Source: a virus. From it: a stretch of 64,000 nucleotides of DNA. Location of the stretch: positions 1-64,000 of IMG/VR virus record IMGVR_UViG_3300032116_000031; one strand, 5' to 3'. Of the stretch, positions 12,290-59,445 are shown in pieces (position 1 is the first letter of the stretch; every line of letters starts with the position of its first letter). Position numbers and translations under genes: made by a program. The notes under the pieces were generated by a model. It was given only the letters and a program-made list of their open reading frames with translations, did not search any database and had not been told where the DNA came from.

Positions 12290-12826
12290 CTATTGGAAGT
12301 AATTATTTTCAAAATAAAGTAGTTGATACTTGTCGGTAAAGTCAATTAATCTTAGAACGCTTAGCAAATCGGCGTATTCTTTAACGCTATCGTTTTGGAT
12401 TTCTCTATATTTTTGTAAGAAATCAAATGTGGCTACATCTTTCAAAAGGATATTTTTAGATGTTTCATTGTACGCTACGAACAAATTATATTCCAAGTTA
12501 TAGGCATAATTGATAATGTCAATCAAATTATCCAATTCGTAGCTTGTTTTAACCGTTGGGATAGTCGGTACAACATTCCATTGAACGAGATAATCCATAA
12601 TACCCTGTGCATGAGCTAACTCTGAACTACTTTCATTTTGGAAAAATGCACCTGCTTTCATAAATCCCTGCTCATTACACCAATTGGCTGCATTAAGATA
12701 GAAATAATGTGCGGTGAATTCGTCTGCGATTCTTTTTGTAAGCAATTCTACAATGGCTGAATCTAATACTTTTGGAGTAATCGGCTCCATATTATACTCC
12801 GTTGGTTTATTGTCTTCTACTTTCAT
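12290..12826 (-). CDS. Phage-encoded non-haem ferritin-like protein
   Basis: This 178-residue protein has the ferritin four-helix pattern. E36 (IADEFTAHYFYL), E69 and H72 (SSELAHAQG) keep the 33- and 3-residue spacing of the E, E and H of the bacterial ferroxidase A site. E112 (YNLEYNLF) and the YREIQNDSVKEYADLL helix match the later metal-binding helices. Known ferritins oxidise Fe(II) and store it in a 24-mer cage; whether this one assembles is unknown. It lies between a small basic gene and three small membrane-protein genes. It could manage host iron or oxidative stress, or be a virion component. The family assignment is fairly secure; the role in infection is inference. Confidence 0.8.
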   Translation of the reverse strand: MKVEDNKPTEYNMEPITPKVLDSAIVELLTKRIADEFTAHYFYLNAANWCNEQGFMKAGAFFQNESSSELAHAQGIMDYLVQWNVVPTIPTVKTSYELDNLIDIINYAYNLEYNLFVAYNETSKNILLKDVATFDFLQKYREIQNDSVKEYADLLSVLRLIDFTDKYQLLYFENNYFQ

Positions 12827-13479: not shown

Positions 13480-13710
13480 TTATTTACCGAAAAAAAATGT
13501 TCTGAAATTTATTGCCCATGTCTTACACATACCTAAACAATCCCTCACAGTCTTCCTCTGGTTGAATATCTCTATGAAGAAATATAGTAGCAATCCCAAT
13601 AGTAAGACAGAAATAAAATATGTCAGATAAGGCAATAATTGGAAATATAAGTAAACGATTCCAATAGTTAAGATAATAACTAATAAATTTTTAAATGTTT
13701 CGTTAAGCAT
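13480..13710 (-). CDS. Small membrane protein
   Basis: This 76-residue protein has two adjacent hydrophobic stretches (LLVIILTIGIVYLYFQLL and YLTYFISVLLLGLLLYFF) and a short basic tail. It overlaps the end of the upstream fusion gene by eight bases, so the two are probably translated from one message. No family was recognised. Confidence 0.65.
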   Translation of the reverse strand: MLNETFKNLLVIILTIGIVYLYFQLLPYLTYFISVLLLGLLLYFFIEIFNQRKTVRDCLGMCKTWAINFRTFFFGK

Positions 13711-14518
13711 GTTTAATTTTGTTTATAAATTCTTTAAAATTGTTTACTCTGTAATGCCCAACATCATATTTAATGTTGTGATTTCTGGTCATTAAATAAC
13801 AGGTGATTCCGTTGCTTTGACAATCAATGAAATTATAAATCGAATCGTCAACAAAAATATCACACTTACCTTTTAACACTTCAGATTTTTTTCCTCCGTC
13901 TACATTAATCATTTCACCTTTGGGAAAACCGCTTCTTTCTAACCACATTTCAATTACTTCGTCGCTACAAGGTCTTGATGTGACATAACCCATAATAGGG
14001 TATGTTATTTCTTCAGGGTCTATTATTGTAGGCAAGGACAACCAAAAGTCGTCGTCATTTTTAATCTTATGAAAATTATTCCTAAAACGATAATCATTCC
14101 AATCCGTCGGGGGTTCACTATCTAATTTCAAATAGCTTAAAAAGTGTCGCTCGAAATCGGCTAATACCCCATCAATATCGCAATAGACTCGTTTGAAACC
14201 TTTTTTATACCAAGCTCTTCTATCATCACCTTGTGGGTAAATATGATAAAATGCGCTTAAAAAATGTGCGTTAGCTTGAACATGGTCCATGTGTAACAAG
14301 CCTGATTCTGGATCATAATCTTCTCCTGCTTCAAAGGCGTTTAAATGCCGTTTTAAAGACGCTAAAACAGAAACCCAAGAAAATCCTTTTTCCCAATTTC
14401 GGGGTTCATATTTTTCAGCGCCCATCGTTAAAACAGTCACTAAACCTTCATAGGCTTTTGGGTGTACTAAATCTGATCGTAGTTTGCCATTGTTGTATCT
14501 TATTGCTTTGTGATCCAT
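13703..14518 (-). CDS. dATP/dGTP diphosphohydrolase-like domain fused to HAD-type 5'-nucleotidase
   Basis: This is a two-domain protein of 271 residues. Residues 1 to about 105 match the phage dATP/dGTP diphosphohydrolase N-terminal family (MazG-like all-alpha NTP pyrophosphatase). Signatures are RYNNGKLRSDLVHPKAYEGL, GAEKYEPRNWEKG and RHLNAFEAGEDYDPESGLLHMDH in shortened view. Residues from about 108 form a HAD domain with catalytic DIDGVLADF, a TSRPCSDE motif and the FVDDS acidic motif, as in 5'(3')-deoxyribonucleotidases. Together they could turn a dNTP into dNMP plus pyrophosphate and then a nucleoside, reshaping the nucleotide pool. The gene sits next to a nucleotidyltransferase gene. 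The fusion is seen directly; substrate specificity is inferred. Confidence 0.8.
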   Translation of the reverse strand: MDHKAIRYNNGKLRSDLVHPKAYEGLVTVLTMGAEKYEPRNWEKGFSWVSVLASLKRHLNAFEAGEDYDPESGLLHMDHVQANAHFLSAFYHIYPQGDDRRAWYKKGFKRVYCDIDGVLADFERHFLSYLKLDSEPPTDWNDYRFRNNFHKIKNDDDFWLSLPTIIDPEEITYPIMGYVTSRPCSDEVIEMWLERSGFPKGEMINVDGGKKSEVLKGKCDIFVDDSIYNFIDCQSNGITCYLMTRNHNIKYDVGHYRVNNFKEFINKIKHA

Positions 14519-14519
14519 A

Positions 14520-15449
14520 TTACCAATTAATTTTATTTCTTATTTCTATTAACAATTTATGTGTAAATTCTTCATCGACTTGATCTGGGATATTAAGCCT
14601 ATCTATTTCGCCGTCCAACCTCTTAATCCTCTTCTCCAATTCATTAATCAATTCAATATGATCCACGTTACCGTTTCTAATATCAATCAATTCTTTTCTA
14701 TTATCCCTGTAAACTTTCATCGAACCAGTATTAATTAATTCCTCCAATGAATCCAAAATCCTTTTAGCGTGCATTAAACTTTTGCCGTCCACCAACAAAC
14801 CATTATCGTCAACAACATTCCTGACCCCTTGAAAAAACAAATAACCAACAGGCGTTTCTCCTTTGGGGATATAAGAAGAATAAATTCCACCTATATCTGA
14901 AATAATCCCCTTATATAGTTTTGTTTTCTTATAATATAATGGAAAACTGCTTTTATTCTCATAATCCTTACAGAAAAGACCTAAATTGTTAATATCATAA
15001 CCATTCAATTTTAAGAAATCATTTAGAGGCATTTCTTTACCATCAAGGGTTATAACAAAGGCCAAATCAAACATATTCTTAATCTTTGACTTCTTAATGT
15101 TTTGAACCGCCATTCCAATAAAGGCATTCTTTATTTTTTTGGTAATAAAGATATTTCTGTTCTCAATTAACAAATTGAAAACAGGGTCCTTGTGTAAAAT
15201 AAATCTATCATCAGTGAAAAGCATCTCTAATAGAGATGGATTACCGCTTTTAAGCAATTGAATAAATCGCCTAATTTCATAACCAACATAATCCTTATTG
15301 ACATTTATTTGCTCAACATATTTAAACCCAAGTATGCTTTCTGGGTGTTGAATGTATACAAATTTTTTGTCAACATCAGAAGTGATAATGTCAGTGTTGT
15401 AGCTAACGCTACCAGTAATTGATTCGAATAATATTTTTTTATCTTCCAT
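14520..15449 (-). CDS. DNA polymerase beta-superfamily nucleotidyltransferase
   Basis: This 309-residue protein starts with the nucleotidyltransferase motif GSVSYNTDIITSDVDKKFV, equivalent to the GSxxYGTxxxxSDxD motif of the RlaP-like predicted nucleotidyltransferases. The aspartates would bind metal. EIRRFIQLLKSGNPSLLEML is the usual helical segment that follows in this family. T4-type phages carry relatives whose targets are not established. It has its own host-type promoter. One exact (LDGEI) and one one-mismatch (VDGKS) copy of the dispersed word lie in its C-terminal half. Confidence 0.75.
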   Translation of the reverse strand: MEDKKILFESITGSVSYNTDIITSDVDKKFVYIQHPESILGFKYVEQINVNKDYVGYEIRRFIQLLKSGNPSLLEMLFTDDRFILHKDPVFNLLIENRNIFITKKIKNAFIGMAVQNIKKSKIKNMFDLAFVITLDGKEMPLNDFLKLNGYDINNLGLFCKDYENKSSFPLYYKKTKLYKGIISDIGGIYSSYIPKGETPVGYLFFQGVRNVVDDNGLLVDGKSLMHAKRILDSLEELINTGSMKVYRDNRKELIDIRNGNVDHIELINELEKRIKRLDGEIDRLNIPDQVDEEFTHKLLIEIRNKINW

Positions 15450-16285: not shown

Positions 16286-17155
16286 TTATAATAAATCACT
16301 TACAGGCTTTGTGCTCCAGAATTTGCAGCTCCAATAGCTTGCTGTTGTTTTATCTTTTCTTGTATCGCATTTGTGTCTTGCTCTGAAATTCTTTCTTCTT
16401 TTTGGATCATCTCTTTTAATTTCCATATTCTTATCCCCAAAATTAACCTTTATAATTTTGCCCGTTTTTGGGTTTTTAACGTAGACCTTATATTTCTTTA
16501 CATCGCCTTTTATGGGTTTGTTTAAAGACACCTTTCTTCCCTTATATTCTGCTTCTGTGAGGACTTCTCCTTGTTCTTGCATACTATTACAGTACTCTAT
16601 TAGATTCTCTATTACAGAGCGTTTTGAGAGGGTTATTTCGTTGGACGGCGAAAAATGCTTTGATTCAGCAATTCCTCCCTTGTCTATTGTCGCAAATTTC
16701 TCTAACCTTGGAAATGCAGGGTCATCTGTAACCTCCTTCTTCCTTTTTTCCCTCATAGCATCCCATGTTTGGGGTTTCATTAACATGTGGTTCTTTACCA
16801 AATATTTTACCTCGTCTGCATCAGCATCTTCAAATGAATTAATCCAATCAGCGTAATCCTCCACTATTTTTGCAGATACTTTTTCGTGACCGTGAGCAGT
16901 AGGTAATCCTGTTTTAGGGCTGATTTCATAAGTATCCATCTTTCCTAAATCGTGGAATAATGCTGCTAAAATTACATTAGGCTCGTCACTGAAATTCTTA
17001 TATGCTCTTCTTAAAACATAAATGATGTGTTTTAAGGTATTTCCCTCTGGATGAAAATTCGGATTTTGTTTTGCGTCCCACTGCTTGAATAACAATTCCT
17101 TTAAGTCGGCTGGCATTGATTTTATCAAATCTTGATAATTATCTGGTAATTTCAT
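16286..17155 (-). CDS. HD-domain phosphohydrolase with C-terminal RARHxC module
   Basis: This 289-residue protein has H43 (KHIIYVL), H68-D69 (AALFHDLGK) and GHEKVSA around 89-95. This is the histidine-aspartate pattern of HD phosphohydrolases, closest to the HD domain of tRNA nucleotidyltransferases. Residues from about 210 form a separate module (YKVYVKNPKTGKI, KRRKNFRARHKC, SYWSCKFW) that recurs at the ends of unrelated T4-like phage proteins and contains conserved cysteines, possibly metal-binding. The nucleotide substrate is unknown. The dispersed word encodes FSPSN near 16642. Confidence 0.75.
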   Translation of the reverse strand: MKLPDNYQDLIKSMPADLKELLFKQWDAKQNPNFHPEGNTLKHIIYVLRRAYKNFSDEPNVILAALFHDLGKMDTYEISPKTGLPTAHGHEKVSAKIVEDYADWINSFEDADADEVKYLVKNHMLMKPQTWDAMREKRKKEVTDDPAFPRLEKFATIDKGGIAESKHFSPSNEITLSKRSVIENLIEYCNSMQEQGEVLTEAEYKGRKVSLNKPIKGDVKKYKVYVKNPKTGKIIKVNFGDKNMEIKRDDPKRRKNFRARHKCDTRKDKTTASYWSCKFWSTKPVSDLL

Positions 17156-58398: not shown

Positions 58399-59011
58399 TT
58401 TTAAATTCTCCTTTTATGATAGTTTCATACTCTAAGGTATAAACATCTTGGTTAAATAATAATTCTTTTATGTTTTGATCGTATTTTTCAGAGCGGACTA
58501 TTACCTTTTTAATTTTATCTTTTACCTCGTTTATATAATACAGGCTAGTAGGTGTATCGTAAGTCGCAACAATCATTTTCTCGCTAAATGCTGGAAGGTA
58601 TGTTGTAATATAATAATTCAATAAATGGTTATTATCATCCTTATCAACATAAGCTATTTTATACTTAAAATTTTCCTTTTCAGTTGTGAAATTGGATTTA
58701 TCATATTTCTTATAAGATATTACCGAAAAGACATTGTTATATACTTTAAAGAAATTATTATCATAATCATATTGTGCCTTATAATCATAATTTTCTTTTA
58801 AAATATCTTGAGCAAGATTTACAATGTAATTTTTAGTTTTGCCATCGTCGCAAATTATTAATATAGAGCAATCTTCCTCAAAGAAAAGTAAATCGCAGAA
58901 ATAGATAACCATTTGAGTAGTCAAGCCGACACTCTTTGGTTGACCTATAATGATTAACTCCTCTTTTGAGGAAGATATAACCTCTGATATTTTAGATACA
59001 TCTACTATCAT
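58388..59011 (-). CDS. Terminase-like ATPase fold with degenerate P-loop
   Basis: This 207-residue protein resembles the N-terminal ATPase half of T4 gp17-type large terminases. GQPKSVGLTTQMVIYFCDLL sits where RQxGKTTxxAxF normally lies, and the ICDDGKTKNYIVNLAQDIL helix follows. The invariant Walker A lysine is replaced by leucine, and the C-terminal nuclease domain is absent. It may be an inactive paralogue or a regulatory subunit of packaging or replication. Overlap of four bases with dUTPase puts it in that operon. The relationship is inference. Confidence 0.45.
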   Translation of the reverse strand: MIVDVSKISEVISSSKEELIIIGQPKSVGLTTQMVIYFCDLLFFEEDCSILIICDDGKTKNYIVNLAQDILKENYDYKAQYDYDNNFFKVYNNVFSVISYKKYDKSNFTTEKENFKYKIAYVDKDDNNHLLNYYITTYLPAFSEKMIVATYDTPTSLYYINEVKDKIKKVIVRSEKYDQNIKELLFNQDVYTLEYETIIKGEFKNEI

Positions 59012-59445
59012 TTACCTGTACTACCGAAACCACCTGTACCCCTTTCTGTATCGGAAAGGGTTTCTGCTTGTGTTATTTGGAAGTTATACCCTTCATTCTT
59101 TCTAAGAATCAATTGAGCTACTCTATCTCCCTGTTTAAAATTATGTTCCATAGAATCAATATGGTCTACTCGCCTCAATCTCATTTGTACTTCACCTCTG
59201 TAACTTGGATCAATAATTCCAACGGAATTGGCTTGTACCCAAGGTTCTTTACTAAGAGATGATCGAGGTACCAATTCCAAATAATAACCGTCTGGGGGTT
59301 CTACTGAAATACCTAATTTGATTACAAGGGCACCATTTATTTCATCGAAAGAATGTGCATATACATCAAAGCCTACATCTGTTGGGCTTGCCTTCGTTGG
59401 TAATTTTGAATCTGGGTGTAAAAGTTTTACTTTAATTTCGTTCAT
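59008..59445 (-). CDS. dut: dUTP diphosphatase
   Basis: This 145-residue trimeric-type dUTPase has all five motifs: DVGFDVYA, PRSSLS, GIIDPSYRGEVQMRL, GDRVAQLIL and the C-terminal RGTGGFGSTG. It hydrolyses dUTP to dUMP and pyrophosphate, keeping uracil out of phage DNA and feeding dTMP synthesis. It overlaps both neighbours by four bases, between a terminase-like gene and an exonuclease gene. The assignment is secure. Confidence 0.95.
   Translation of the reverse strand: MNEIKVKLLHPDSKLPTKASPTDVGFDVYAHSFDEINGALVIKLGISVEPPDGYYLELVPRSSLSKEPWVQANSVGIIDPSYRGEVQMRLRRVDHIDSMEHNFKQGDRVAQLILRKNEGYNFQITQAETLSDTERGTGGFGSTGK

Follow-up and report, generated by a model that had tools for sequence, protein, structure and literature searches.

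The locus raises the question of what is achieved by a single phage frame that joins a dATP/dGTP diphosphohydrolase-like domain to a HAD nucleotidase, and whether such a frame refers to 2-aminoadenine (Z) or otherwise modified DNA in the phage. The window, i.e. the whole analysed stretch, covers the initial 64 kb of a virus record with a length of 136,214 bases; the record may be a fragment, and no exact terminal repeat was found in it. By ORF analysis of the window, a minus-strand open frame of 271 aa was determined at 13703-14518; in the same interval the plus strand is stop-rich throughout. The single two-domain frame of 271 residues given in the preliminary description was thereby confirmed at exactly these positions; the strand, which was not stated there, is minus. 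The gene starts 1 bp past the stop codon of its upstream neighbour (14520-15449), inside a long minus-strand gene array. Its leader is A-rich, and no obvious Shine-Dalgarno sequence was seen on inspection of the leader. The architecture is uncharacterised yet widespread and is already on record as phrog_37590, a family without an assigned function, which covered nearly the whole protein in the PHROG search (E 1.9e-69). No paper describing a DUF5664-HAD fusion was found in the literature search.

The N-terminal domain, aa 6-100 (14219-14503, minus strand), was matched by PF18909 (dGTP_diPhyd_N, DUF5664) with 101.5 bits against the curated cut-off of 27 (E 2.7e-29), and the same profile matched 55 of 55 fusions. 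The domain is predicted to be a dNTP pyrophosphohydrolase (dNTP -> dNMP + PPi). Across the 55 diverse fusions, G33, Y37, W42, G45, R57, H58, D67, D69 and H76 were invariant, the most conserved core (14291-14350, minus strand) being formed by R57 H58 (14345-14350), D67-D69 (14312-14320) and H76 (14291-14293). The invariant residues, except D67, are present also in the stand-alone DUF5664 of Arthrobacter phage Wayne (ALY10775.1), and 12 core positions, G33, K36, Y37, N41, W42, G45, R57, H58, G65, E66, D69 and H76, are identical in the Wayne and Acinetobacter phage SH-Ab 15497 proteins. The Wayne enzyme was recently determined to hydrolyse dATP, dUTP and dGTP to the corresponding dNMPs, with a kcat for dATP tenfold above that for dGTP (PMC12884076, published in 2026). 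A significant solved-structure relative of the DUF5664 model was not found in the PDB, where the structural matches had E values above 3. The neighbours, far from significant, included MazG/HisE-type all-alpha NTP pyrophosphatases, e.g. 2yxh and 7bgn; a MazG-like fold is not claimed on the basis of such weak matches.

The C-terminal domain, aa 109-269 (13712-14194, minus strand), has a predicted HAD fold of the 5'(3')-deoxyribonucleotidase (NT5C) type, and its expected reaction is dNMP -> dN + Pi. With the window protein alone, PF06941 (NT5C) resulted in 17.9 bits, below the curated cut-off of 24.8 (E 0.003), while 46 of the 55 fusion homologues were matched at E values up to 0.01, the best one at 6.7e-7. 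The E values of phrog_420 and phrog_2643 ('5'-3' deoxyribonucleotidase') with the HAD half were 3e-16 and 4e-5, respectively. The pLDDT of the AlphaFold model was 91.6. The seven best PDB matches determined with Foldseek were human and mouse 5'(3')-deoxyribonucleotidases (E 1e-5 to 1e-4, probability 1.00), 1z4i, 2i7d and 1q92 among the top ones. These mammalian enzymes, NT5C and NT5M, have the same HAD fold; in contrast to the fusion they are stand-alone, they share 15-19% identity with the fusion's HAD domain, and the substrate of the fusion is only predicted. All four HAD motifs are present with the catalytic residues intact and invariant in 55 of 55 fusions (all on the minus strand): motif I, D114-I-D116 (nucleophile and acid/base; 14171-14179), motif II, T180 (13979-13981), motif III, K211 (13886-13888), and motif IV, D224 D225 (Mg2+ binding; 13844-13849). 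The HAD assignment is weak by single sequence; judged from the aligned family and the predicted model, it is nevertheless clear.

The same half was matched also by phrog_415 'polynucleotide kinase' (aa 110-264, E 5e-6). The Pfam-assigned neighbours of the fusion gene within the window encode RlaP-like, HD and ferritin-like proteins, not replication proteins. The adjoining gene at 14520-15449 (minus strand) encodes an RlaP-type RNA-repair nucleotidyltransferase (PF10127, E 1e-16), and an HD-domain protein is encoded two genes further (16286-17155, minus strand). These observations would be accommodated if the HAD half were an end phosphatase, similar to the 3'-phosphatase of polynucleotide kinase, which acts with the RlaP-like and HD proteins in RNA/DNA end repair, DUF5664 only supplying or removing nucleotides. 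Such a role is improbable: among the other fusion loci only four have an RlaP homologue (median distance, 3.7 kb), deoxyribonucleotidases that act on free nucleotides rank first by fold, and the fusion does not include a kinase domain. A CCA-adding-like tRNA nucleotidyltransferase is encoded at 121430-122593 of the whole record, and it is possible that the RlaP-type, HD and CCA-adding-like genes form an RNA repair set. The ferritin-like gene of the array is situated at 12290-12826 (minus strand; PF00210, E 5e-20).

To determine the spread of the fusion, IMG/VR was scanned, and relatives were encoded on 144 viral contigs. Of these, 80 were kept and, together with isolates, resulted in 85 examined loci. 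Both domains were in one frame at 84 of the 85 loci. Since phrog_37590 covers the protein in nearly full length as well, the fusion is neither a chance event nor a frameshift artefact. The only exception was Maribacter phage Panino, in which the DUF5664 and HAD halves are neighbouring genes, 4 bp apart. The contigs bearing the fusion reach 365 kb. The same full-length two-domain protein was found in isolates with 30-46% identity: in Cellulophaga phages phi38:1 (gp014), phi40:1 and Calle (46%; Calle_1 gp043 is labelled '5' nucleotidase'), in Leptolyngbya phage Lbo-JY46 (42%) and in Salinibacter phages (30%). A tested function was not found in the literature for the phi38:1, Calle_1, Lbo-JY46 or Salinibacter phage proteins. 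A search of 84,980 genomes of bacteria and archaea detected only five relatives, one of them full length and belonging to a MAG, which indicates that this is essentially a phage protein. The GC content of the fusion loci varied from 24 to 57%; the fusion is therefore not strictly confined to low-GC loci, and low GC was not adopted as its explanation.

With a Panino-type query, 55 loci carrying DUF5664 without the fusion-type HAD were found. In the domain tree, the Panino DUF5664 sits in the stand-alone clade (100/100), apart from the fusions, yet the gene beside it encodes a fusion-type HAD (E 5e-21). It thus seems that the DUF5664-HAD coupling has arisen on more than one occasion. A single origin of the fusion was not adopted: the resolution of the domain tree, built from 97 columns, is too low, and its starred branches require a minimum of two changes. 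At four of the 55 stand-alone loci (L103, L108, L110, L148), a small HAD-type gene of another kind, with weak LNS2/NT5C matches, comes after DUF5664, hinting that DUF5664 has repeatedly been paired with phosphatases, here with an unrelated-looking HAD.

We consider, with a probability of about 0.6, that the fusion is a bifunctional dNTP-degrading enzyme of phages, which balances or cleans the dNTP pool during the replication of DNA with ordinary bases. In the proposed sequence of steps, the DUF5664 half would convert dNTP to dNMP and PPi, the substrates by homology being dATP, dGTP and dUTP, or non-canonical purine dNTPs. The tethered HAD deoxyribonucleotidase would then take the last phosphate and yield the deoxynucleoside, and this second step would make the first one hard to reverse. 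In this manner the pool might be kept balanced or clean alongside the phage's ribonucleotide reductase and dUTPase. That two hydrolytic steps work in series had been proposed earlier, and the idea is supported by the presence of PF18909 in the SH-Ab MazZ and by the dNMP products of a stand-alone DUF5664. The bifunctional reading is based on the PF18909 and whole-protein PHROG matches, the deoxyribonucleotidase fold, the invariant residues, the core shared with the Wayne enzyme and the recurrent pairing; it is from these that we infer the activity of both halves in the fusion protein, the step order, the preferred base and the physiological role. Genes of a Prim-Pol, a family A polymerase and a class II ribonucleotide reductase are among the commonest identifiable neighbours across the fusion loci, which fits an enzyme controlling the dNTP pool in the course of replication, whereas the window's own neighbourhood differs. 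In Cellulophaga and Salinibacter phages the fusion genes are situated beside or near DNA polymerase genes, unlike in the window, and the hosts and phage types differ as well. The phage's own NrdA, NrdB, dUTPase and NUDIX protein are in agreement with the bifunctional reading. On the other side, the NT5C score below the cut-off and the phrog_415 match leave room for a HAD domain acting on some other phosphomonoester, draining dATP by preference would appear wasteful for a genome of 68% AT, and the adjacent genes of the window are not those of replication. A substrate assay of any DUF5664-HAD fusion was not found in the literature. The outcome proposed for the fusion, net conversion of dNTP to deoxynucleoside, is the same as that of the dATP triphosphohydrolase DatZ; the latter, however, is a one-step HD-domain enzyme with no homology to the fusion.

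The same two reactions could serve house-cleaning instead of the level control of canonical dNTPs: the first domain would hydrolyse dNTPs that are damaged or non-canonical (dUTP, dITP, oxidised or methylated purines), and the nucleotidase step would block their re-phosphorylation. We regard this alternative as rather unlikely, while taking it seriously. It is in agreement with the dUTP activity of DUF5664 besides dATP and dGTP (PMC12884076), with the MazG/HisE-type pyrophosphatases 2yxh and 7bgn among the weak neighbours of the DUF5664 model, and with the mitochondrial deoxyribonucleotidase as a fold match of the second domain. However, the structural matches of the first domain are far from significance, and a damaged-base substrate is not reported for DUF5664 in PMC12884076. 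In addition, the phage already has a NUDIX protein and a separate dUTPase (PF00692 profile match; 59008-59445, minus strand), the latter making a pure dUTPase role of the fusion less needed.

The first domain had been linked previously to the MazZ family and, through it, to the possibility of a modified base. The part of this claim that stands is the N-terminal PF18909 domain, which the fusion has in common with MazZ of SH-Ab 15497 (DUF5664 + DUF550). The enzyme itself is different: MazZ carries the MazG-like domain PF04447 and works beside PurZ and DatZ, whereas in the window protein a HAD nucleotidase takes the place of PF04447. DUF550 (PF04447) was absent from both the fusion protein and the record, and it was detected in none of 16 fusion-type records, two Z-phage controls being positive. 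With these working controls, with the fusion outside the PurZ-linked clade and with no purZ in the record, membership of the fusion in MazZ was rejected. A connection with 2-aminoadenine, or with another modified purine, is likewise unsupported, as the search of the rest of the genome for PurZ, DpoZ and DatZ gave no match in the 136-kb record: PF00709 (PurA/PurZ) was not found there, while 14 of 14 control genomes were matched, and family A (DpoZ-type) polymerase (PF00476) and YfbR/DatZ-type HD (PF12917) were not found either. The DNA polymerase found in the record belongs to family B. Homologues of thymidylate synthase and nucleoside deoxyribosyltransferase (NDT) were not found in the record, and nothing obvious among other base-modification genes was seen in the Pfam/PHROG scans of most ORFs; these batch scans list families without member names, and some structural ORFs were outside the Pfam scan.

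Among 50 records with the fusion or its split form, PF00709 had no match in 46, including fully sequenced isolates. Taking into account that the record may be incomplete, this negative result across relatives strongly suggests that PurZ is absent from the virus. The other four fusion records (299-365 kb) have a PF00709 homologue with the motif GDEGKG or GDTGKG, in which the Asp (Asp13) is kept in 4 of 4; in phage PurZ this PurA Asp is replaced by Ser in 100% (PMC12884076). In comparison with the PDB, the L092 homologue gave E values of 1e-57 to 1e-41 with bacterial and archaeal PurA and 1e-19 to 1e-14 with PurZ, and the corresponding values of the L095 homologue were 5e-21 with PurA and 6e-4 with phiVC8 PurZ. 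As the Asp is retained in all four and the two compared proteins are nearer to PurA, these jumbo-record proteins were rejected as PurZ; by their sequences they are PurA-like. Of the four jumbo PurA homologues (L092-L096), three are of one type. The one of these three that was searched, L095, resembles Rhizobium, Vibrio and Mycobacterium phage proteins labelled '2-aminooxy adenylosuccinate synthetase' or PurA-like, with the Asp kept.

In the domain tree, the PurZ-linked DUF5664 domains of SH-Ab, JeffCo, PMBT28 and Kokobel2 form a clade (99/86) without the window protein, and the domains of Wayne and of Arthrobacter phage Gordon group together. The Wayne protein differs from the fusion by the missing HAD, by its other clade and by its position beside a PurZ0-type gene, which the genome of the window does not have. 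According to the survey in PMC12884076, DUF5664 occurs also in canonical-DNA phages, and Wayne-type domains are placed next to the domains of Arthrobacter phages whose DNA is canonical. As the PurZ-linked domains are separate as well, PF18909 alone is not evidence for Z-DNA. It is thus very improbable that the fusion serves Z- or other modified-purine DNA by removing the competing canonical purine dNTP, a strategy known from Z-phages (PMC8342488, PMC12884076) and suggested here by the PF18909 part of MazZ and by the preference of the Wayne enzyme, encoded beside a PurZ0-type gene, for dATP. Scarcely to be expected at all is a PurZ-free route to a modified purine in the fusion phages, in which the fusion would strip the canonical purine dNTP to the nucleoside and so deny it to the polymerase.

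The record carrying the fusion has a G+C content of 31.5% and includes genes for virion components of the T4 type (gp25, sheath, terminase, portal, major head protein). Flavobacterium phage immuto has the closest terminase, at only 25% identity; the host is therefore, by this sequence match, plausibly a Bacteroidota bacterium. Outside the window, at 74639-78026 of the record, NrdA is broken: the N-part (76863-78026) ends in an intein-like start, the C-part (74639-75814) opens with an intein-like end, and a GIY-YIG-like homing gene (75817-76851) is situated between them, an arrangement resembling a split intein within a fractured gene of ribonucleotide reductase. An IMP dehydrogenase/GMP reductase-like protein of purine metabolism, with a Cys-containing loop (PF00478, E 4e-37), is encoded at 117291-118397 (minus strand), and an IS605 OrfB/TnpB-like gene (PF01385, PF07282 in the batch scan) is located at 115985-117265 (minus strand).

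The PF18909 label 'dATP/dGTP diphosphohydrolase' must not be taken as a sign of 2-aminoadenine DNA. The fusion links the newly assayed DUF5664 domain (PMC12884076) to a predicted deoxynucleotidase in very diverse phages, including those with contigs of several hundred kilobases. Phages carry many enzymes of the dNTP pool, and for this one the fusion predicts a single assayable reaction, in which dNTP would be converted to the deoxynucleoside in two tethered steps.
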